Positions 49,383-61,802 of a stretch of 64,000 nucleotides of DNA are shown here, in pieces (the first letter of the stretch is position 1; every line of letters starts with the position of its first letter). A program made the position numbers and the translations under genes. The DNA comes from Actinomycetota bacterium (GTDB taxonomy: Bacteria > Actinomycetota > Thermoleophilia > Solirubrobacterales > 70-9). Location of the stretch: the NCBI GenBank assembly GCA_005885405.1, contig VAYN01000012.1:202555-266554 (forward strand), given 5' to 3'. The notes under the pieces were generated by a model. The model searched no databases and was not told the origin of the DNA. It saw nothing but the letters and a program-made list of their open reading frames with translations.

Positions 49383-49478
49383 GCGCCCGTAGCTCAGTGG
49401 TCAACGGGTCCTTTCGGGGGCCCAAAGAGCGTCGGTCTTTCAAGCCGAAGGTCGCCGGTTCGAATCCGGTCGGGCGCA
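49383..49478 (+). tRNA. tRNA-Glu (anticodon TTC) with a ~22-base structured insertion in the D-loop
   Basis: Acceptor GCGCCCG/CGGGCGC (49383-49389 and 49471-49477, discriminator A 49478), D-stem GCTC/GAGC (49392-49395 and 49427-49430), anticodon stem TCGGT/GCCGA with loop CTTTCAA giving anticodon TTC, T-arm GCCGG-TTCGAAT-CCGGT. All arms are intact, but the D-loop is 31 bases (49396-49426) rather than about 9. The extra bases form their own hairpin, GGGTCC/GGGCCC. No CCA is encoded. The gene contains the left copy of a 17-bp direct repeat that also marks the far end of the island. Confidence 0.85.
49437..49453 (+). repeat. attL core: 17-bp direct repeat within the tRNA anticodon arm
   Basis: CTTTCAAGCCGAAGGTC, running from the first base of the anticodon loop to the variable loop. 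Identical to 61786-61802. Anticodon-loop crossover is a common choice of tyrosine integrases. Confidence 0.8.
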
Positions 49479-50494: not shown

Positions 50495-50884
50495 AAAATT
50501 TACTTTTGTCCTCGCAAAACCCAAAATTTGCCTAACCCGCGCTTAGCAGTAACGCTAGCACCAGTTGGGAGGTAACGCTGCCCCCGACACAGATGGAAAC
50601 AGAAAGAGACATCGCAGGCAAGGGACTAAGCAGGCAGAGGACTCCACAGCTTCCCTCCGAGCGGGGGTCAGGGGACTTGGAAACCCAGCTGGAGTTCCCT
50701 ACGGTTGGTTGAGCCGAGGCAAGCTGCGCAGTCCGTTCGGAACGGCCGGCTCTGGCGAACTCCCGTCGTAAGTGGAGGTGCCGGGGCCGGTCTCCGGCTC
50801 GGCAGTCTGACCTAGCTGTGCTTATCACCGACGAAGTCTGCGACCTCAACCCGTTTCAAGGGCATCCGCATTCGGGCTAACGAC
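50495..50884. other. Non-coding gap in the island
   Basis: 390 bases with no credible gene. It begins A/T-rich (two AAAATTT copies about 28 bases apart and TTTTG/CAAAA inverted repeat near 50496-50530), which could be the promoter/operator of the divergent gene at 50494. A GTAACGCT sequence occurs twice near 50550-50580. The rest appears to be decayed DNA between that gene and the integrase relic. Confidence 0.5.
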
Positions 50885-51460
50885 CACGGGCCAAAAAGAA
50901 GCCCCGCCCGATCCGCGTCTTCAGGTTCGAGGAGATGCACCGCTTCGCCAAACAGCAGGGCGCTACGAGGCGATGGTCTGCGTCTTCACCGACTGCGGCC
51001 TGCGGCTAGGGGAGGTGCTGCCCTTGCGCCGCGAAGACTTCGACGGCGAGACCCTCCAATTTCGCCGCACCGCCCACGAGGGGCGGATCCTCGAGGGAAC
51101 GAAGACCGACCACGGCGAGGCCGACGCCGGCCGCTTCGTTCCCGTGCCGGCGACCCTCGCCTGGATCCTCGAAGCCCAAATCAACCTCAACGGCCCCGAC
51201 TGCCAGCTCCTCTTTCCGACCCCCCGCGGCCGCCTTTGGCGCGAGCGCACCTTCTACCGCGACGTCTGGAAGCCGGCCCAGGAGGTGTCCGGCCTACATA
51301 TCCGCCCCATGAGTGCCGGCACAGCTACGCAACCCACCTCCGTGGCATGCCAGAGATCAGCGACGCTGATTTGGCGGAGGTTGTGGTCATCGCATTGAGA
51401 CCATGCTGGCGCGCTAAAACGCATTCCACCGGAGGCACCTTCGCCTCTGTCAGAGCCGCG
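50885..51460 (+). pseudogene. Tyrosine recombinase/integrase relic
   Basis: C-terminal catalytic half of a phage-type integrase in three frames: RPIRVFRFEEMHRFAKQQG, then (frame change near 50965) YEAMVCVFTDCGLRLGEVLPLRRED with the first catalytic Arg, then (frame change near 51305) PHECRHSYATHLRGMPEISDADLAEV with the H-x-x-R box. The final block should read ETMLARYTH; here it reads ETMLAR followed by TAA, so the catalytic Tyr codon is a stop. The N-terminal arm-binding domain is not visible. Inactive remnant of the island's own integrase. Confidence 0.85.
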
Positions 51461-51507
51461 ATCGGGTAATGGTGAGGGATCCTTGGATACCCTTCGGGGG
51501 AGCGGGG

Positions 51508-52653
51508 ATGGATGTAAACGAGAAAACTCTGAGAAGCCGGCCCCGAATGCGGGCGGCAGTCATCGACAGTCTGACCCAGCAAGGATTTACCTTGAGCGAG
51601 GGGAAGATCGTCGCGCCGAGCATGGATTCGAAGGAGTCCCTGAGGGCGCTGCACAGTGAGGCGGTCGGCCATCAGCGCGAGAAGTCCCGGCCGGGCCTAG
51701 AGCGGCACGAGCGGGTGCTTTTGAAGTCCATCGCGAATGGAACCGAAATCGATCCGAGCAAGATCCGACCCCGCCTAGCGCAGGTTCATCCAGGCACGGA
51801 GGAGGAGTTGCTCTTTCGATGGGCTCGGCTCCATTGGTCTATTCCGACGTCTGCAGGGTATGGGCGCCGTCTGCGGTTCGTAGTTCGCGACGAGGCACAT
51901 AACAACAAGCTGATTGGGATTCTCGGGCTGTCCGATCCCGTTTTTGCTTTGGGGGGGCGCGACGATTGGATTGGTTGGGATAGTGAGGGCCGCCGAGAGC
52001 GCCTCCATCAGGTTATGGACGCGTTTGTCCTAGGTTCCGTACCTCCCTACAACATGCTCTTGGCGGGAAAGCTCGTCGCGTTACTAGCAACTAGCGCGGA
52101 GGTTCAGGATGCGTATGCCGGCAGGTACTGTGGCCGGGCATCTCTTATCGCTTCAAAGCGACGTCACGCCCCTCTTGCCCTCATAACCACGGCCTCGGCG
52201 CTTGGTCGATCTTCCGTCTACAGCCGGCTACGTTTGCAGGGGAGGAAGGCAGCTATCAGCGTGGGATTCACCCGTGGATCTGGAGACTTCCAATTTGCGA
52301 ACGGATTGTACGATGCACTCAGCGCGTACGCGGCGAGGAACTGTACCGCCACCGCCAAGCACAGCAACTGGGGGTCTGGCTTCCGCAATCGCCGCGAGGT
52401 TGTCAAGAAGGCCCTGCAGCACTTGGGTCTCAATGATGCCCTGATGTACCACGGGGTACAACGAGAGATCTTCGTGTTCCCATTGGCAACGAACACTCGT
52501 GAGGCACTGACCAAAGGGGATGAGTTGGCGCCGTACTCTGAGTCAGCGGAGTACATCTCAGAGTTCTGGAAACTGCGTTGGATGTTCCCGCGCGCCGTCC
52601 GAGATGACAGATACAAGTCATTTGATCGTGACTCATGGCGCTTGTGGACTTGA
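51508..52653 (+). CDS. DruA-like (DUF4338) protein, first gene of a putative defence operon
   Basis: 381 residues from ATG 51508, chosen for the GGGGGAGCGGGG ribosome-binding stretch; an in-frame ATG at 51469 would add 13 residues. Family-like blocks: RRLRFVVRDEAHNNKLIG, FALGGRDDWIGWDSEGRR, VPPYNMLLAGKLVALLATS, TTASALGRSSVYSRLRLQG, WGSGFRNRREVVKKALQHLG and YHGVQREIFVFPLA. From memory these match the DUF4338 family, whose member DruA belongs to the Druantia anti-phage systems. Biochemical role unknown. Its 3' end overlaps the NurA-like gene by 19 bases, showing translational coupling. Lower GC and different codon use from the core genome. No druB-E-like genes are adjacent. Confidence 0.75.
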   Translation: MDVNEKTLRSRPRMRAAVIDSLTQQGFTLSEGKIVAPSMDSKESLRALHSEAVGHQREKSRPGLERHERVLLKSIANGTEIDPSKIRPRLAQVHPGTEEELLFRWARLHWSIPTSAGYGRRLRFVVRDEAHNNKLIGILGLSDPVFALGGRDDWIGWDSEGRRERLHQVMDAFVLGSVPPYNMLLAGKLVALLATSAEVQDAYAGRYCGRASLIASKRRHAPLALITTASALGRSSVYSRLRLQGRKAAISVGFTRGSGDFQFANGLYDALSAYAARNCTATAKHSNWGSGFRNRREVVKKALQHLGLNDALMYHGVQREIFVFPLATNTREALTKGDELAPYSESAEYISEFWKLRWMFPRAVRDDRYKSFDRDSWRLWT

Positions 52654-53813
52654 CCCAGCTCGATAGCCCTTCAGATCAACCCTTTGTTGACCTCCCAGCT
52701 GGCCTGGTCGACGAACTCATCGACAACACGGGCGCTATCGGCAGCAGGGTTCTGGAGGGATTTGAACACTTGCGAGAGAACAGGTCGGCTCTCCGCGCCG
52801 GTCTTGATGATCGAAAGATCCTCGGAGCCGAGGGGGATCTGCCTAGGGCGGAACCGGCGACGGTTGCTGCGGTTGACGGATCTTACGCCGTAGACCGCCT
52901 CCTCACGACTGACCTCTGCGTTTGCGCGGCGGTGGGCGTCGAAGGTCTTACTCCACCGCACGAGTCGCGAGTGTGGCCTGATCCAAAGCACCGTACGTTT
53001 GTGACCGAGGAAAGCCATAGCGAGGAGACGGCGACGGTCTTGAGAGCAGTCATGGTGGGGTATGAGCTAGAGCTTGCCGAAGCAGCGCCTCACTCAGTCG
53101 TAATGCTGGATGGCACCTTGGCCTTGCCGATCATCTACTTCAACCAGGCATTCGACAAGGCCGCATCTGCCCCGCAGAGAAAGGTAGCGTCCTGCTTCTT
53201 AGAACGAGCGCTGCCGTTCTTGGAAGCCTATGAGCAAATGCTGACTTCACCTCGCTCGGATAAGTACTACATCGGTCTGCCAAAGTACTCAACGAAAAGA
53301 GAGGTCGGAACTGCGTTGGCTTGGCCGGCGGCATACGATGATCGCGGGTTGCTTAGCCTCCTTCTCCAAGCAGGGGAGTACACGAAGCCAATGCAACTTG
53401 AGAAGCCGCCCTCGCCGTGGCATTTATCGCTAAAGGGCCTCGATGGGAGTCAGCTAGATCGAGCCGGCGAGGTCGTCGAGCGAATTCAAGCGGCGATGTC
53501 GAACCTTTGGACGTGCTACTACCGGCCGAGATCGTGGCTTCCGGCGGTTCGTATTGAGATGGCCGCCAGCATCGCAGGGAACCAGCAACAATTAGCCAAT
53601 GTGCTGGGTGGCGTCAAGGATCAATGTGCGGCGCCTGGCATGATGGAGCCGTACCCGATCTATATGGCAGATCGTATGGTGAAGTCGATTTCTACGGCAT
53701 TGCCCGCGATTCGTCAGGTCGTCACTCAGCAAGCATGTGAGAAATACGGGGGAGATGTAGGTGAGGTCTTCTTTGGGCTGCATAGCTACCGATCCGAAGC
53801 GGGGGCAGCGTGA
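52635..53813 (+). CDS. nurA: NurA-like nuclease
   Basis: 392 residues. NurA family: 5'-3' nuclease that works with HerA on DNA ends. The metal-binding motif AVDGSYAVDR (~79-88) at the start of an RNase H-like core and the second acidic motif VVMLDGTLALPI (~155-166) are visible, with further family-like stretches KYYIGLPKYSTKREV, and WLPAVRIEMA. The stop overlaps the next start in a GTGA arrangement, so NurA and HerA are coupled, as expected for physical partners. Confidence 0.82.
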   Translation: MALVDLTQLDSPSDQPFVDLPAGLVDELIDNTGAIGSRVLEGFEHLRENRSALRAGLDDRKILGAEGDLPRAEPATVAAVDGSYAVDRLLTTDLCVCAAVGVEGLTPPHESRVWPDPKHRTFVTEESHSEETATVLRAVMVGYELELAEAAPHSVVMLDGTLALPIIYFNQAFDKAASAPQRKVASCFLERALPFLEAYEQMLTSPRSDKYYIGLPKYSTKREVGTALAWPAAYDDRGLLSLLLQAGEYTKPMQLEKPPSPWHLSLKGLDGSQLDRAGEVVERIQAAMSNLWTCYYRPRSWLPAVRIEMAASIAGNQQQLANVLGGVKDQCAAPGMMEPYPIYMADRMVKSISTALPAIRQVVTQQACEKYGGDVGEVFFGLHSYRSEAGAA

Positions 53814-55600
53814 GTAGCGCTAGTGCGCGAATGCGGGAGCTGGCGGCTGCTTCGGAGCGCCTTGGTGTCGTCGGATCCCCATCCACGACCGCCGAGCTTG
53901 CCATGGATGTACTCGGGACCGCCGTGCAAAAAAAGCTTGTGGGCGAGTTAGCGTTCTTGCAGTTTGTTCAAGACGGCAAAGATCATTATGCCTTAGGTCA
54001 GATAACTGAGGTTGAGCTGCGAAATGTATGGCACGAGGACCCGACTATCCGCAGCCTTATTCGCCAGCGTGGTGGTGTGGATCAGATCAGCGAGCGCCAG
54101 GACACTCATTTAGGCCGGATGACGCTAAGCGCAGTCTTCTCAGAGAACTCTGAAGGCAAGTACGCACCGTCATTCCTGGGGACCGTGCCATCGACCGGGA
54201 CGAACATATATCTGGTACGCGATCAGGTCTTAGAAACTCTTCTCGAGCCGTTCAAAGAGGAGCTGTTCTATTTGGGGCGTGTTTATGGCTCGACTCCTCT
54301 TCTGCCTACGTGGTTTAAGCACTTTGGGTCTGGGCGGGGCGGGGCGGGGGAGGCCTACCACCTCGGGATCTTTGGCAAGAGCGGATCAGGCAAGTCAGTG
54401 CTCGCCAAGCTCATCCTGTTTGCCTATGCGCGGCACGCAGATATGGGGGCAATTGTCATTGACCCACAAGGCGAGTTTGCCAGGGACCTCCGGTCAGGCG
54501 CCGCCGGCCACGAGGGGCTACAGTTGCCGGTGCGCGAAATAATTGAGGGCCTGGGCCGGCAAGCCGAGGTACTGGGCGTAAGCGACCTCGTGCTCGATCG
54601 TTGGGACATCTTCGAGGAGATCCTTTTCGAGTCCCAGTTCTTTGAGCGACTAGGCATGAGGCGCAACAACAATCGGGAGCTTGCCTGCGCCGAGATTGTG
54701 GCGCACCTTAAGAAGAAAAAGGTGACGCTCAAGTCACTGCCCGAGAGGGCATCCTTTGACCAGGCGTGGGCGTTGCTACACGACGAGAAAGCGCTCGCAC
54801 GGATCTACAATCAGAAAGACAGGCGTGCAGGTCTGAAAGATCAGGTCGACAGCGCTGACAGAGATGCCTTTTTCTCCGAGGTGTGGTCACCGGTCGCGGC
54901 ACTCTTCGACGAAAGTCGATCCGGAGCACGAAAGGTCACCTGGGCCATCGATGCGGTTCTCAAGGAGAAGAAGTTCCTAGTTCTGGATTTGTCCGGGAAG
55001 GACAATGAGGACCTCTATTGGAATGCCAGGATTCAGGCACTTACCATTCAGAAGGTAATTAGCGATCTCAAGCAGCGCGCGGAGATGGCTTACGAGGATG
55101 ACAAGAGCTTGAACACTCTGGTTCTGATTGACGAGGCAGCCCGCCTAGCGCCGCGTGAGAAGCCCGACGACGCGGTCGAGCAGCGAGTCAGGGATCAGTT
55201 GATCGACGCGGTCCGGACGACGCGCAAGTACGGCCTTGGATGGCTGTTCATTTCTCAAACCTTGGCGAGCCTGCACCAAGAGATTCTGAATCAGATGCGC
55301 ATTATGTTCTTCGGGTTCGGGTTGTCCTTGGGGCAAGAGTACGACGCGGTCGCGCGGTTGGTGGGCTCGCGGGGACCTGCACTTGACCTTTACAGATTGT
55401 TTCGCGACCCACACTCGGCGTTCAGTGTGGAGAGTCGAGAGTACTCATTCATGACGGTGGGACCCGTGAGTCCTCTGTCGTTCGCGGGAACGCCCCTATT
55501 TCTGAGTGTCTTCAACTCGGTAGATGGGTTCTTGGCGGCGAACCCCCGACTCGCTGGCTCCGGGCAGACCGGATCGGCTGCGCTTTCCGAGGAGCAATAG
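53810..55600 (+). CDS. herA: HerA-like hexameric ATPase/DNA translocase
   Basis: 596 residues, GTG start. FtsK/HerA-superfamily motor: N-terminal HerA barrel-like domain (~1-170), Walker A GIFGKSGSGKSVLAKL (~187-202), IDPQGEFARDL after strand 2, Walker B TLVLIDEAARLAP (~436-448), arginine/sensor region RTTRKYGLGWLFISQTLASL and the C-terminal LGQEYDAVARLVGSRGP block. Forms a ring that pumps DNA into the paired nuclease. Third gene of the DruA-NurA-HerA operon. Confidence 0.88.
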   Translation: MSSASARMRELAAASERLGVVGSPSTTAELAMDVLGTAVQKKLVGELAFLQFVQDGKDHYALGQITEVELRNVWHEDPTIRSLIRQRGGVDQISERQDTHLGRMTLSAVFSENSEGKYAPSFLGTVPSTGTNIYLVRDQVLETLLEPFKEELFYLGRVYGSTPLLPTWFKHFGSGRGGAGEAYHLGIFGKSGSGKSVLAKLILFAYARHADMGAIVIDPQGEFARDLRSGAAGHEGLQLPVREIIEGLGRQAEVLGVSDLVLDRWDIFEEILFESQFFERLGMRRNNNRELACAEIVAHLKKKKVTLKSLPERASFDQAWALLHDEKALARIYNQKDRRAGLKDQVDSADRDAFFSEVWSPVAALFDESRSGARKVTWAIDAVLKEKKFLVLDLSGKDNEDLYWNARIQALTIQKVISDLKQRAEMAYEDDKSLNTLVLIDEAARLAPREKPDDAVEQRVRDQLIDAVRTTRKYGLGWLFISQTLASLHQEILNQMRIMFFGFGLSLGQEYDAVARLVGSRGPALDLYRLFRDPHSAFSVESREYSFMTVGPVSPLSFAGTPLFLSVFNSVDGFLAANPRLAGSGQTGSAALSEEQ

Positions 55601-56124: not shown

Positions 56125-57875
56125 TCACCCGGCTCCAACGACCAGGAACTCGGCGCCGACGGACTGGCAGTTGGCCGCGACTGCATTCAGCAACGTATCC
56201 AACCGCCGCAGCCGGGAAAGTTGGTGATGGTTTGCGTCGTTTCTGACTTCGGCAACCAAGCACTCGACCCGATCGCGTCCAGCTGCTCCACAAATTGCTG
56301 CCGGTCCCTGCCAACGCCGTCCTCCCATGCCAGCAAGGTCAAGACATCCGGGAACTGAGTCCCAAGGAGGTTGCCCGACGCTGCAACGGAATCGAGGTGG
56401 CGAAGGTTCTTCACCGCCTGTGCGCATACGGTCTCGTACGGGGCGACAGCAATCTCTCTCGCCGGGCTGGCGGAATGCGCGCCCTTGGCATGAATCAACG
56501 TAAGGACCGGCTTGTCCTCTGAAAGATCGAGATGGATGAAGTCCGCCGTCTCGCCGGGGCGGTCGTCACAGGCGAGCCAACCGCGCGCTCCGATGAGACC
56601 TGCACCGGTCGGCCACTCGTTGTAAATCCAGCCAAATAGCGAGCGGTCGGTGTCGTTAATCGCAGAGAGTCCGTCCTGTGGCTTCTCGCGGTCGACTTCC
56701 CAATCGGTGCCAAAGGGAATCCATTTCCAACCGACGAACGGCAGATCCCGGTAGCGCATCGAGAAGACTTGACGGTCTTGAACCGAGTGCCCGGACTCGA
56801 AGTTCACGGTTACCGCCTCCGGATTGTGCAGGTTCGCCATGACCTGCGTGAACTCCCCGACGTAACCGGGAGTGGCTGATCCCGAAAGCGAGCCATTGAT
56901 CTCATCTCCAACCATGGAGAAATCAAGATCGATCGTGCCCACAACCTCACCGCCTTGGTGCACACTCGCCGATAGCGAAGTTCCTTGCGCTTGCGTGACC
57001 TCAAACGAGGTACCAAATGCAAGTTTCTCCATCGCCGCCAGCGCATCCGCCTCGGTAGAATCAAGGACGGGTCCGGCAATAAGGAGCTCGGGCGGAGTGA
57101 TCGCGACCTCGTAGGCGCCCTCTACCCCAGAAAGATCGCTCTGGGAGGTTGCAAGGACAGGTAATGGCTCGAGGCTCGCCCCCTCGTTTTCGGCCAATAC
57201 GGCGAGCGCCGCAGCAATCGATGCCTCGAAGTCATGCCGATCGGTAGAAGGCGCGACCCAAAGCCGGGACTCGTCTACCGCGAGCCCCATAACGTCCCCA
57301 ATAGTCGCGTTGTCGGGTTCGGCGCGGATCGCCGTGTATCGGTAGCTCTGGTCGGCGAGTGGGTCGAGTGCGCCTTTCAGATCACGGCCGCTCATGACCT
57401 TCGCATCGGCCTTGGAATCAGTCGAATGATGGGTGCCTCGCAGCCACAGGGTCCGAGCCCGGCCCTTTACGAAGGACGCCTTCATCTCGCCTGCGGTCGC
57501 AAATCGCAGTGGGCCCAATTTTCCTTTGCGCAGGGCCTTCTTCACCGAACTTTTTTTCGAAGTCTCGGTGATGTGGATTGCAAGCCAATCTCCGCTCCTC
57601 AAGACAAGAGCCAAGTGGTTCACCCTGTCCAGGACTGGCTCGGTGGCCCAGGCAACTGAGCGACGGACTTCATAGTGCACAAAGGACGTGTCAAGCGGCT
57701 CGGTCTCATTGCCAACCGCGACCACCCGGCGCGACCCGTCGCCTGGTTTGACGTCCATGACTTTGCGCAGCTTCAGGAGCGTTTGCCTGGCGGTTTGCTC
57801 GCTTCCGTCGTGGATGCGTGCCACGAAAACCGATTTGAACGGCTTTAGGTCATCCAGGCTCAGTTTGATTGGCAT
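56125..57875 (-). CDS. Large hypothetical protein with probable PD-(D/E)xK nuclease domain; 3' end frameshifted
   Basis: About 580 residues from ATG 57875 (MPIKLSLDDLKPFKSVFV). The N-terminal two thirds are unrecognised mixed alpha/beta. Around residues 435-475, WLACDDRPGETADFIHLDL then PVLTLIHAKGAHSAS and ETVCAQAVKNL match the layout D...E-x-(A)D...H-x-K of nuclease domains found at the C-termini of defence-type helicases. The reading frame stops early at 56187 (GGWIRC); the expected end RLRRLDTLLNAVAANCQSVG AEFLVVG lies in the neighbouring frame to 56125, joined at a CCC run near 56215. Possible effector of the defence locus. Confidence 0.6.
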
Positions 57876-58194
57876 CGCTACGGCCCCCGCCGTTCCGGAG
57901 TGATGCTCGGATCCTCCCGGTCCTGCGGGCACCACGCAAGGTCAGTTTCGGGTACGCGTTGAGAACCGGGGCTGCGCCATCGCCGGCGGGGTTTCATTTC
58001 GGTCACATCCGCGCGGGAAGCCCCAGAGCAATTGGGCGGCCCGTCGCCCTTCAATCCCGGGGACAAGGATGTGGGCAGTTGTGCGCACAAAATTCATTGT
58101 TGACCAGGAGGGCTGTAATTCCCCATGAGCATTCCCGACGTTGCCGCGGACCGAGGCGGTGAGGGGAGCGGACGCGTTCGTCGGCCGGCCCTTC
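57876..58194. other. Non-coding gap with internal att-like site
   Basis: 319 bases without a credible gene, between the nuclease-like gene start and the UvrA paralogue end. It contains repeat copy B (57992-58009), followed 31 bases later by CCGTCGCCCTTCAATCCCGG, which resembles the right att region CCGTCCTTTCAAGCCGAAGG at 61781-61800 with nearly the same spacing. Also a probable promoter region for the gene at 57875. Confidence 0.5.
57992..58009 (+). repeat. Island repeat B
   Basis: TTTCATTTCGGTCACATC, 15 of 18 bases shared with copies A and C. It is followed at ~31 bases by a degenerate version of the att core, marking the probable seam between two inserted elements. Confidence 0.5.
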
Positions 58195-60690
58195 TCAGGG
58201 GAGGTGCCGGGCGAGATACGGACCCGTGCGGCTCTCGGGCGTGGCCGCGAGTTGCGCCGGTGTACCGGTGGCGATGATCCGGCCGCCGGCGTCGCCGCCG
58301 CCCGGGCCGAGCTCGATGGTCCAGTCGGTGCAGGCGATGACGTCGAGGTCGTGCTCGACGACGACGACCGTGTTGCCGGCATCGACCAGGCGCTGGAGCT
58401 GGACGATCAGCAGTTCGATGTCGGCCGGGTGCAGCCCGGTGGTTGGCTCGTCGAGCAGGTAGAGCGTGTGTCCTCGGCGGGCGCGCTGCAGCTCGGTCGC
58501 CAGCTTGATCCGCTGGGCCTCGCCGCCTGAGAGCTCGGTCGCGGGCTGGCCGAGGCGCAGGTAGCCGAGACCGACGTCGCGCAGGGTGCCGAGGCTGCGG
58601 TCCGCGGCGGGGACGTCGGCGAGGAAGTCGGCGGCCTCGTCGACGGTCATCCGCAGGACGTCGGCGATGGTGTGTGACCGGTAGGTGATCGCGAGCGTCT
58701 CCGGGTTGTAGCGGGCGCCGCCGCAGGTCGGGCAGGGTCCGTAGGTGCCGGGCAGGAACAGCAGCTCGACGGCGACGAAGCCCTCCCCTTGGCAGGTCTC
58801 ACAGCGCCCGCCCGCGACGTTGAAGGAGAAGCGGCCCGGCCCCCAGCCGCGCTTGCGCGCTCCGTCGGTGGCGGCGAACAGCTTGCGGACCGCGTCGAAC
58901 ATCCCCGTGTAAGTGGCGAGGTTGGACCGGGGCGTGCGCCCGATCGGCTTCTGGTCGACGGTGACCAGCCGAGACAGCGCCTCGAGTCCCGCGGCCTCGA
59001 CGCCCACGACCTCGCCGTCCTCAGCGGACTCCGCATCGTCCTCCTCGGCCTCGGCCACCTGCGCCGCGGCGCCGACCACGTCGGCGAGCACCTGGGTCAC
59101 CAGGGTCGACTTGCCGGAGCCCGACACGCCGGCCACCGCGGTCAGCAGCCCCAGCGGGAACCTGACCGCGAGATCGCGCAGGTTGTGCCGGGTGATGTGC
59201 CGGAGCTCCAGCCATTCCTCCGGGTCACGAGGCGCCCGCGCGGATCTCGAATCCGACACGGGAAAGAGATATCGGCGGGTAATCGACCGCTCGACCTCGG
59301 CGAGGCCCTCGACCGGGCCGCTGTAGAGCACCTCACCGCCGTGCTCACCGGCCGCGGGCCCGACGTCGACGATCCAGTCGGCCCGGCGGGCGACGTCCAT
59401 GTCGTGCTCGACGACGAAGAGCGAGTTGCCCGCTTCCCTGAGTCGCTGGAGGACGAGCATCAGCGGCTCGGCGTCGGCGGGATGGAGCCCGGCCGAGGGC
59501 TCGTCGAGGACGTAGAGCACCCCGAAGAGCCCCGAGCGCAGCTGCGTCGCCAGCCGCAGCCGCTGCATCTCGCCGGGAGAGAGCGTGGTCGTCGTCCGGC
59601 TCAGGCCGAGGTAGCCGAGGCCGAGCTCGACCAGGACCGCGATCCGCTCACGAAGGTCGCCGGCGATCAGCTTGGCCACGTCGGTCCGCTCGCCGGAGAG
59701 GGCCGAGAGATGCGCCGGTTCGGGGTCCTCGAGCTCGGCGGCCGGACGCAGGACCTCGGCCAGGGTGGTGAGAGGAAGCGCCGATAGTTCGGCGATGTCG
59801 TAGCCGGCGAAGGTGACCGCCAGCGCCTCCGGCCGCAGCCGCTTGCCGTGGCAGACCGGACACGGAGCGGTTTCGACGTACTGCAGGGCGCGCCGTCGCA
59901 TCGCCGCGCTCTGGGAGTTCGCGAGCGTGTGGCGGATGTGGCGTTCGGCGCTCGAGAAGGTGCCGTTGTAGTAGTAGTCGGCTTCGACTTCGGCGCGGTC
60001 AGGGTGGACTTCGACGGTGGGCTGCTCGTCGGTGAAGAGGATCCAATTGCGATCCCTACGACTGAGCTTGCGCCATGGCTTGTCGATGTCGAAGCCCAGC
60101 GTGACCAGGATGTCGCGAAGGTTTTGGCCTTGCCATGCCCCGGGCCAGGCGGCGACGGCGCGTTCGCGGATGCTCAGCGCGGGGTCAGGGACGAGCGTCT
60201 GCTCGGTGATGTTGTGGATCGTCCCGAGGCCGTGGCACTCGCGACAGGCGCCGATCGCGGTGTTCGGCGAGAACCAGTCTGAGTCCATCACCTCCTCGGC
60301 CCCGGGTGGGTAGGTGCCGGCTCGGGAGAACAGCATCCGCAGCGAGTTCGAGAGCGTCGTCACGGTGCCGACGCTGGAGCGCGAAGTCGCACCGCCGCGC
60401 CGCTGCTGAAGGGCGATCGCCGGCGGCAGGCCGGTGATGTCGCGTACCTTCGGCGCGTCCTGCTGGTCGAGAAGGCGCCGTGCGTACGGCGTCACGGACT
60501 CGAAGTAGCGTCGCTGCGCCTCCGCGTAGATCGTCCCGAATGCGAGCGAGGACTTCCCCGAGCCGGACACGCCGGTGAACACGGTCAGCGCGTCGCGCGG
60601 CGCGTCGAGGTCTACGGCGCGAAGATTGTGCTCCTCCGCCCCGCGCACGGAGACGAAGCCGTCTCGGGGATCGGCTGCGCCCGCCCGCAC
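58195..60690 (-). CDS. Class II-type UvrA paralogue without UvrB-binding domain
   Basis: 831 residues, against about 950 for housekeeping UvrA. Two ABC modules: Walker A GVSGSGKSSLAFGTIYAEAQ (~40) and GVSGSGKSTLVTQ (~525), signatures TLSPGEMQRLRLA and ELSGGEAQRIKLA, Walker B VLDEPSAGLHP and LLDEPTTGLHP, and zinc fingers CRECHG/CPVCHG and CETCQG/CPTCGG. After the first module the sequence passes directly from AGTYPPGAEEVMDSDWFSPN to the zinc region, so the UvrB-binding domain is absent. Such paralogues (UvrA2, DrrC-like) are linked to tolerance of DNA-binding drugs rather than UvrABC repair. Operon with the small gene upstream. Confidence 0.9.
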   Translation of the reverse strand: MRAGAADPRDGFVSVRGAEEHNLRAVDLDAPRDALTVFTGVSGSGKSSLAFGTIYAEAQRRYFESVTPYARRLLDQQDAPKVRDITGLPPAIALQQRRGGATSRSSVGTVTTLSNSLRMLFSRAGTYPPGAEEVMDSDWFSPNTAIGACRECHGLGTIHNITEQTLVPDPALSIRERAVAAWPGAWQGQNLRDILVTLGFDIDKPWRKLSRRDRNWILFTDEQPTVEVHPDRAEVEADYYYNGTFSSAERHIRHTLANSQSAAMRRRALQYVETAPCPVCHGKRLRPEALAVTFAGYDIAELSALPLTTLAEVLRPAAELEDPEPAHLSALSGERTDVAKLIAGDLRERIAVLVELGLGYLGLSRTTTTLSPGEMQRLRLATQLRSGLFGVLYVLDEPSAGLHPADAEPLMLVLQRLREAGNSLFVVEHDMDVARRADWIVDVGPAAGEHGGEVLYSGPVEGLAEVERSITRRYLFPVSDSRSARAPRDPEEWLELRHITRHNLRDLAVRFPLGLLTAVAGVSGSGKSTLVTQVLADVVGAAAQVAEAEEDDAESAEDGEVVGVEAAGLEALSRLVTVDQKPIGRTPRSNLATYTGMFDAVRKLFAATDGARKRGWGPGRFSFNVAGGRCETCQGEGFVAVELLFLPGTYGPCPTCGGARYNPETLAITYRSHTIADVLRMTVDEAADFLADVPAADRSLGTLRDVGLGYLRLGQPATELSGGEAQRIKLATELQRARRGHTLYLLDEPTTGLHPADIELLIVQLQRLVDAGNTVVVVEHDLDVIACTDWTIELGPGGGDAGGRIIATGTPAQLAATPESRTGPYLARHLP

Positions 60691-61785: not shown

Positions 61786-61802
61786 CTTTCAAGCCGAAGG
61801 TC
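61786..61802 (+). repeat. attR core: right copy of the 17-bp direct repeat
   Basis: Exact copy of tRNA bases 49437-49453. The sequence after it (TAGATTGGCGC) does not continue as a tRNA 3' half, so the tRNA end regained from the island is the one used now and the original end is lost or decayed. Confidence 0.75.

Follow-up and report, generated by a model that had tools for sequence, protein, structure and literature searches.

A mobile DruA-NurA-HerA gene triplet is probably an undescribed HerA-nuclease type defence system

In this study, we characterised a three-gene operon encoding a DruA-like protein, a NurA-like nuclease and a HerA-like ATPase, found in a bacterial DNA window of 64,000 nucleotides (by window we mean the whole stretch that was analysed). 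In our reading, to which we attach a probability of roughly 0.5, the triplet is a mobile anti-invader system in which HerA and NurA would form the degrader and an interchangeable DruA the discriminator, most likely by marking the cell's own DNA. The triplet is probably an undescribed defence system of the HerA-nuclease type; there are no anti-phage data, and our view that the three proteins form a complex and defend the cell, and that DruA marks DNA, is an inference. The operon consists of the following genes:

51508..52653, + strand: druA-like gene (DUF4338/PF14236, GNAT-like fold; PF14236 346.5 bits, PADLOC DruA 357 bits)
52635..53813, + strand: nurA-like nuclease gene (PF09376 24.1 bits; D81/E144/D159 invariant; fold match to solved NurA)
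53810..55600, + strand: herA-like hexameric DNA-pump ATPase gene (PF01935 43.3 bits; conserved motifs; PDB HerA/TdpA matches)

An earlier note made from the letters alone had described three plus-strand genes overlapping by 19 bases (druA/nurA) and 4 bases (nurA/herA), with which the open reading frame coordinates agree. It had also named the products as DUF4338/DruA, NurA and HerA, and in profile searches all three names held, the first on a strong PF14236 match and the others on PF09376 and PF01935, with the NurA call backed by fold. The druA frame is open from an ATG at 51469; we prefer the start at 51508, which has a purine-rich stretch upstream, and the 13 additional residues from 51469 are modelled by AlphaFold with very low confidence.

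By profile alone, the NurA match is weak (24.1 bits against a cut-off of 21). Structurally, the AlphaFold model (pLDDT 81.5) has NurA chains as its top Foldseek matches, the best in the PDB being the NurA subunit of T. kodakarensis HerA-NurA (E 1.4e-9), and it also matches S. solfataricus NurA, NurA 3tai/3tal/3taz, Deinococcus NurA and TdpB (E 3.2e-4). D81, E144 and D159 are invariant in an alignment of 17 homologues; D81 lies in a DGSY motif that aligns with the VDGS motif of solved NurA 3tai, and E144 and D159 are presumably the remaining metal ligands, as we infer from general knowledge of NurA. The test for the NurA family, an RNase H-like fold with conserved acidic residues, is met. So is that for the HerA family, a HerA/FtsK ATPase with Walker A, Walker B and a sensor glutamine: the PF01935 match covers the central domain, solved HerA and TdpA chains are matched, and the protein carries Walker A (GKSGSGKS, 189-196), DPQGE (218-222), DEA (441-443) and SQT (482-484) motifs. 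The motifs are conserved in 14 homologues, with one Walker A position being either S or T, and no full-length homologue has lost either Walker motif or the SQT sensor. Because motifs and catalytic residues are conserved and the folds of NurA and HerA agree with these assignments, druA, nurA and herA all look functional. In two Thermomicrobiaceae triplets, HerA has in addition a C-terminal DnaX_C domain (L006:11151-13418, 37 bits; L007:11133-13400, 33 bits), a domain of the DNA polymerase III tau subunit that hints at replisome coupling of these two proteins.

The DruA model (pLDDT 85) finds a GNAT fold in nearly all of its 50 best PDB matches, among them malonyl-CoA decarboxylase, SpeG, TmcA and NAT10, each match being weak (best E 0.012); DUF4338 has also been called a GNAT domain in the literature (PMC10853773). 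Residues conserved throughout the family fall in three motifs, LLxGKL, TxSxxGxSSxYxR and GxTxG, which by their position could form the acyl-CoA and catalytic region, an inference on our part. GNAT enzymes that modify DNA exist, such as phage Mu Mom (PMC7824862). Mom acts on adenine. Kinship with it was not supported: comparing a profile of the DruA alignment with Mom revealed no similarity in sequence, and the relatives of Mom that were obtained were too close for a useful profile. Nor did a search of the DruA sequence against solved structures find a relative. Among viral models, DruA-like folds occur in predicted giant-virus proteins of Faunusvirus (E 5e-17), Yasminevirus and Dasosvirus. Another DruA architecture is found on a Roseivivax plasmid (L040:3023-6777), where the domain belongs to a longer protein whose gene stands in tandem with genes for GHKL ATPases.

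The earlier note left its proposal dependent on whether the triplet recurs elsewhere, and a survey of gene neighbourhoods shows that it does. Searching relatives, one genome per species and viral contigs, we found DruA-NurA-HerA in identical order and strand in 19 further loci (L002-L004, L006-L017, L019, L021, L028 and L030), or 20 with the window's own, and because the same gene order recurs in this way the arrangement is not a product of chance. As judged from record titles, the loci span about ten phyla (Thermomicrobiota, Acidobacteriota, Planctomycetota, Pseudomonadota, Gemmatimonadota, Bacillota, Verrucomicrobiota, Chloroflexota, Hydrogenedentota-like and Nitrospirota, in addition to the window's own phylum), and many belong to metagenome-assembled genomes; in one of them (L011) NurA has an internal stop. 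Within closer relatives, DruA is present in 4 of 151, each time inside a complete triplet. Across 397 genomes of the phylum, DruA of any kind is found in 19 and NurA of the triplet kind in three, one of which is a fragment.

Around most of the other triplets, the adjoining genes have no evident role in defence. Scattered defence-like neighbours, which in the absence of a control we did not use as main evidence, are a PsyrT-like PRTase after HerA (L008), a UvrD-PD-(D/E)XK protein before DruA (L010), a Schlafen/AlbA protein (L011) and a Panacea antitoxin (L014). In the Pyrinomonas locus (L008:12962-14532), a HerA-like fragment and then the PsyrT/ShosT-like phosphoribosyltransferase lie directly behind the triplet, and the same genome has a second, stop-containing NurA. 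At L010:6085-8844, a UvrD-PD-(D/E)XK nuclease fusion precedes DruA, its frame overlapping the DruA start, and is perhaps a fourth component there.

The surroundings of the operon in the window comprise these features:

49383..49478, + strand: tRNA gene, island integration site, with a D-arm insertion (ARAGORN Pro(ggg); sibling homologue Glu(ttc))
49437..49453, + strand: 17-bp att-like core CTTTCAAGCCGAAGGTC, inside the tRNA
50824..51424, + strand: tyrosine integrase remnant, frameshifted (PF00589 31.5 bits with two frames joined)
56187..57935, - strand: 582-aa island protein, function unassigned (weak PADLOC PDC-S71 match, 20.7 bits, E 3.8e-5)
58195..60690, - strand: UvrA-like ABC protein gene, accessory
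61786..61802, + strand: 17-bp att-like core again, which may mark where the element ends on the right

The picture of a tRNA island with a dead integrase and island-like composition, drawn from the letters alone, stood up well: the tRNA gene is confirmed, PF00589 is matched only after two frames are joined, and GC falls from about 0.70 to 0.57-0.63 across 50-58 kb. The amino-acid label is doubtful, ARAGORN's Pro being at odds with the Glu called for the homologous sibling gene. The D-arm insertion is shared across the genus (window and siblings L090, L091 and L093); ARAGORN's call is Glu(ttc) for one of these genes and Pro(ggg) for some. About 4.6 kb beyond the core copy at 61786, outside the window, the 3' half of the tRNA is repeated in a longer copy. 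No credible Pfam family was found for the 582-aa protein. The UvrA-like gene has a close copy in one of 11 siblings, most of the others having only a 42-49% paralogue.

A sister genome (G009), 88% identical to the window flank at the nucleotide level, carries beside the same tRNA an integrase 82% identical in nucleotides to the window's remnant. Its island of about 10.8 kb (L090:2434-13313) encodes, besides this integrase, a TIR effector (PF10137), a SIR2/ThsA-like protein and QatC (PADLOC 196 bits). Because of this cargo the tRNA site is, on predicted gene content, a defence-island hotspot. In another genome (G010), the sequence that follows this tRNA is high in GC and does not resemble the island of the window. 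The sister-species cargo is the best evidence of our analysis that the triplet is itself defence cargo, and it is evidence of genomic context only. The suggestion of a defence system made in the earlier note thus gains support from the TIR, SIR2 and QatC island, while its anti-phage activity has not been measured.

Context also bears on whether the triplet might be a DNA-repair operon for end resection that travels on mobile elements and has no part in defence. Such a role has been assigned to archaeal and Deinococcus NurA-HerA (PMC9960219), yet it would sit poorly with the rare and patchy occurrence of the triplet (4 complete copies in the 151 relatives and 3 in the 397 genomes of the phylum, one a fragment), with its mobility, with its place beside a dead integrase at a hotspot where the sister species has defence genes, and with presence on phage contigs. 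Moreover, it is now argued that HerA-NurA itself degrades both strands and may act against viruses (PMC12977600). We consider a pure repair function improbable.

DruA has a history different from that of NurA and HerA. A concatenated NurA-HerA tree places the main loci in two deep clades (I and II), and the DruA tree disagrees with it. Two loci, L017 and L030, have clade II NurA-HerA, yet their DruA groups with clade I loci: compared with L008 and L009, their DruA proteins are 79-82% identical and their NurA and HerA proteins 34-40% (for L030 and L009, 82% in DruA, 36% in NurA and 40% in HerA). L019 is the reverse case in its NurA-HerA and DruA groupings, and between L009 and L011 it is DruA that differs most (52% identity, against 74% for NurA and 83% for HerA). 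When the DruA tree is constrained to unite the clade II loci, a group taken from the NurA-HerA tree rather than from that of DruA, the log-likelihood drops by 295 units (AU p 7.7e-71); reconciling DruA with the NurA-HerA clades requires at least five changes. One common history of DruA and NurA-HerA is rejected. At the nucleotide level, identity between L030 and L009 is 78-87% over most of DruA and only about 53% once NurA begins, while L008 and L010 have the opposite pattern, with identity rising past the DruA/NurA junction; this junction is the boundary of exchange. As far as can be read from sequences, the pattern is the behaviour of a specificity or modification gene moving between effectors. 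The earlier proposal that DruA provides recognition or regulation fits with this exchange, and which of recognition, regulation or DNA marking applies has not been shown.

Exchange weighs against one regulatory explanation in particular, that DruA is a protein acyltransferase acting on HerA or NurA, for example by keeping them inactive until infection, and that phage DruA inhibits the system. Acetylation of proteins is common among GNAT folds, and the gene overlaps suggest tight co-expression; a regulator should nevertheless co-evolve with its target, and here DruA was exchanged between NurA-HerA pairs only 34-40% identical. This leaves the explanation with little to recommend it.

A second source of evidence is DruA on two phage contigs (L029 and L031), nested within the triplet DruA clade and without NurA in these records. 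The records are fragments, so that the missing NurA is no proof of its absence; NurA relatives were also sought among phage records, and none were found. One DruA (L029) is sister to that of L016 (99/96) and keeps all 31 of the 31 family-conserved residues examined; the other (L031) falls inside the L002/L008/L017 group (100/100) and is truncated, lacking the C-terminus. Around them lie phage replication, ParB-like and PAPS-reductase genes, of which a PAPS-reductase-like gene (phrog_2302) is common to both contigs (L029:9929-11176 and L031:4644-5825). If DruA marks DNA as self, a phage would be expected to profit from DruA alone; the alternative is a decoy or inhibitor.

HerA is paired with effectors in several defence systems. 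By homology, a HerA hexamer would pump double-stranded DNA into a NurA dimer, which would degrade both strands; six HerA subunits have been described as pumping double-stranded DNA into a NurA dimer in this way, with both strands cut (PMC12977600). An interchangeable DruA may tell this degrader which DNA is foreign, in the most likely form by acting as a GNAT-like enzyme that gives the cell's own DNA an acyl-type mark; invading DNA, which lacks it, would then be degraded by HerA-NurA. Our preference for self-marking rests on the GNAT-like fold, on the solitary DruA of phages and on what has been reported of evasion in Druantia type I: a review states that Druantia discriminates via DNA modification, and that phage Druad1 promotes methylation and thereby evades type I Druantia (PMC12904381).

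DruA could instead be a sensor or loader with no marking of host DNA: it would detect some property of the invader's DNA, be it sequence, modification or replication structure, and then recruit HerA-NurA or switch it on. The exchange data also fit a specificity subunit, and phage DruA could be a decoy. As might be expected of a recognition module, DruA is present, too, beside a DEAD/DEAH helicase in Druantia type I loci and within longer proteins that have other regions. A recognition role is nearly as plausible as self-marking. Against a sensor, the intact solitary DruA of L029 would bring a phage no gain unless it is a decoy, and the GNAT-like fold with its conserved motif residues suggests an enzyme; in this specific form we regard the idea as rather doubtful. 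Self-marking in its strongest version, which we offer as a tentative possibility, would make DruA a DNA-modifying acyltransferase of a new self-marking class, the modification enzyme alone being exchanged between HerA-NurA degraders and captured by phages for anti-restriction.

A requirement for DruA in every NurA-HerA of the triplet family was rejected, since three loci (L018, L035 and L036) have no adjacent DruA. For L018, whose NurA-HerA belongs to the triplet clade, DruA is absent from the whole 3-Mb MAG, which, to the extent that this genome can tell, argues against DruA as an indispensable antidote.

Comparison with known systems places the triplet near several and within none. With Druantia type I it has in common a DruA protein (the PF14236 test is met at 346.5 bits), a mobile-element location and action on DNA; Druantia type I has DruB, C, D and the DruE helicase, none of which the triplet has, its motor being HerA and its nuclease NurA. 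As the earlier note had it, the remaining Druantia genes are absent: Pfam and PADLOC scans found none around the operon, and DruE (a large DEAD/DEAH helicase with DUF1998) was not found among the island's open reading frames. Without DruE, and with NurA and HerA as operon partners, membership of Druantia was rejected. Two plasmid-borne Druantia type I loci have the DEAD/DEAH helicase, and their DruA, together with that of a Meiothermus plasmid, forms a separate branch outside triplet DruA (99/97), the triplet branch reaching only 83/90. HerA-DUF4297 and HerA-Sir2 are similar in combining a HerA hexamer with an effector enzyme in a short operon; the operon has no DUF4297 or SIR2 match, which excludes membership, and differs in its effector, the RNase H-like nuclease NurA, and in its third component, DruA.

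Tdp (TdpC-TdpAB) is a phosphorothioation-based system of extremophiles in which the third gene marks self DNA. Its HerA-like TdpA and NurA-like TdpB have solved chains that are matched by triplet HerA and NurA, and we would call it the closest functional analogue of the triplet. The similarity is only at fold and profile level, and the third gene is a GNAT-like DruA with no sulfur-modification gene; with no TdpC, and no sulfur-transfer family match in the proteins scanned around the operon, membership was rejected. MADS is a multi-gene set, mad1-mad8, that includes a methyltransferase. HerA matches the mad8 model (54.5 bits), the neighbours include no other mad genes, and this assignment was likewise rejected. 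The archaeal and Deinococcus NurA-HerA resection complex has both enzymes and the same pump-plus-nuclease logic, but is distant in sequence, and the triplet adds a DruA partner and a mobile context. BRC combines HerA/FtsK with GNAT, TGT and BREX-like genes; its likeness lies in a HerA translocase accompanied by a GNAT, for which its authors suggest a role in modifying self DNA, and it differs in having seven components with PglZ and DUF6079, with no mention of NurA or DUF4338 (PMC12839542).

In PADLOC 2023, NurA matches none of the models, and DruA and HerA match only the generic DruA and HerA/mad8 models. We found no description of DUF4338/DruA, NurA and HerA as a system in the open-access literature, subscription papers and most preprints lying outside this search. 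The earlier note knew of no named system of precisely this make-up, and within these two sources none was found.

In conclusion, what DruA does has been unclear ever since the first description of Druantia, and the triplet offers a minimal three-gene setting in which DruA stands beside two enzymes of known mechanism. Natural exchange of DruA and its solitary phage copies point to self/non-self discrimination, and its function is directly testable. Should DruA be a DNA-modifying acyltransferase, the triplet would be restriction-modification-like, and the presence of DruA in Druantia would be explained as well. The triplet would add to the catalogue a widespread HerA-NurA defence family, including members from thermophiles with proteins suited to structural work.
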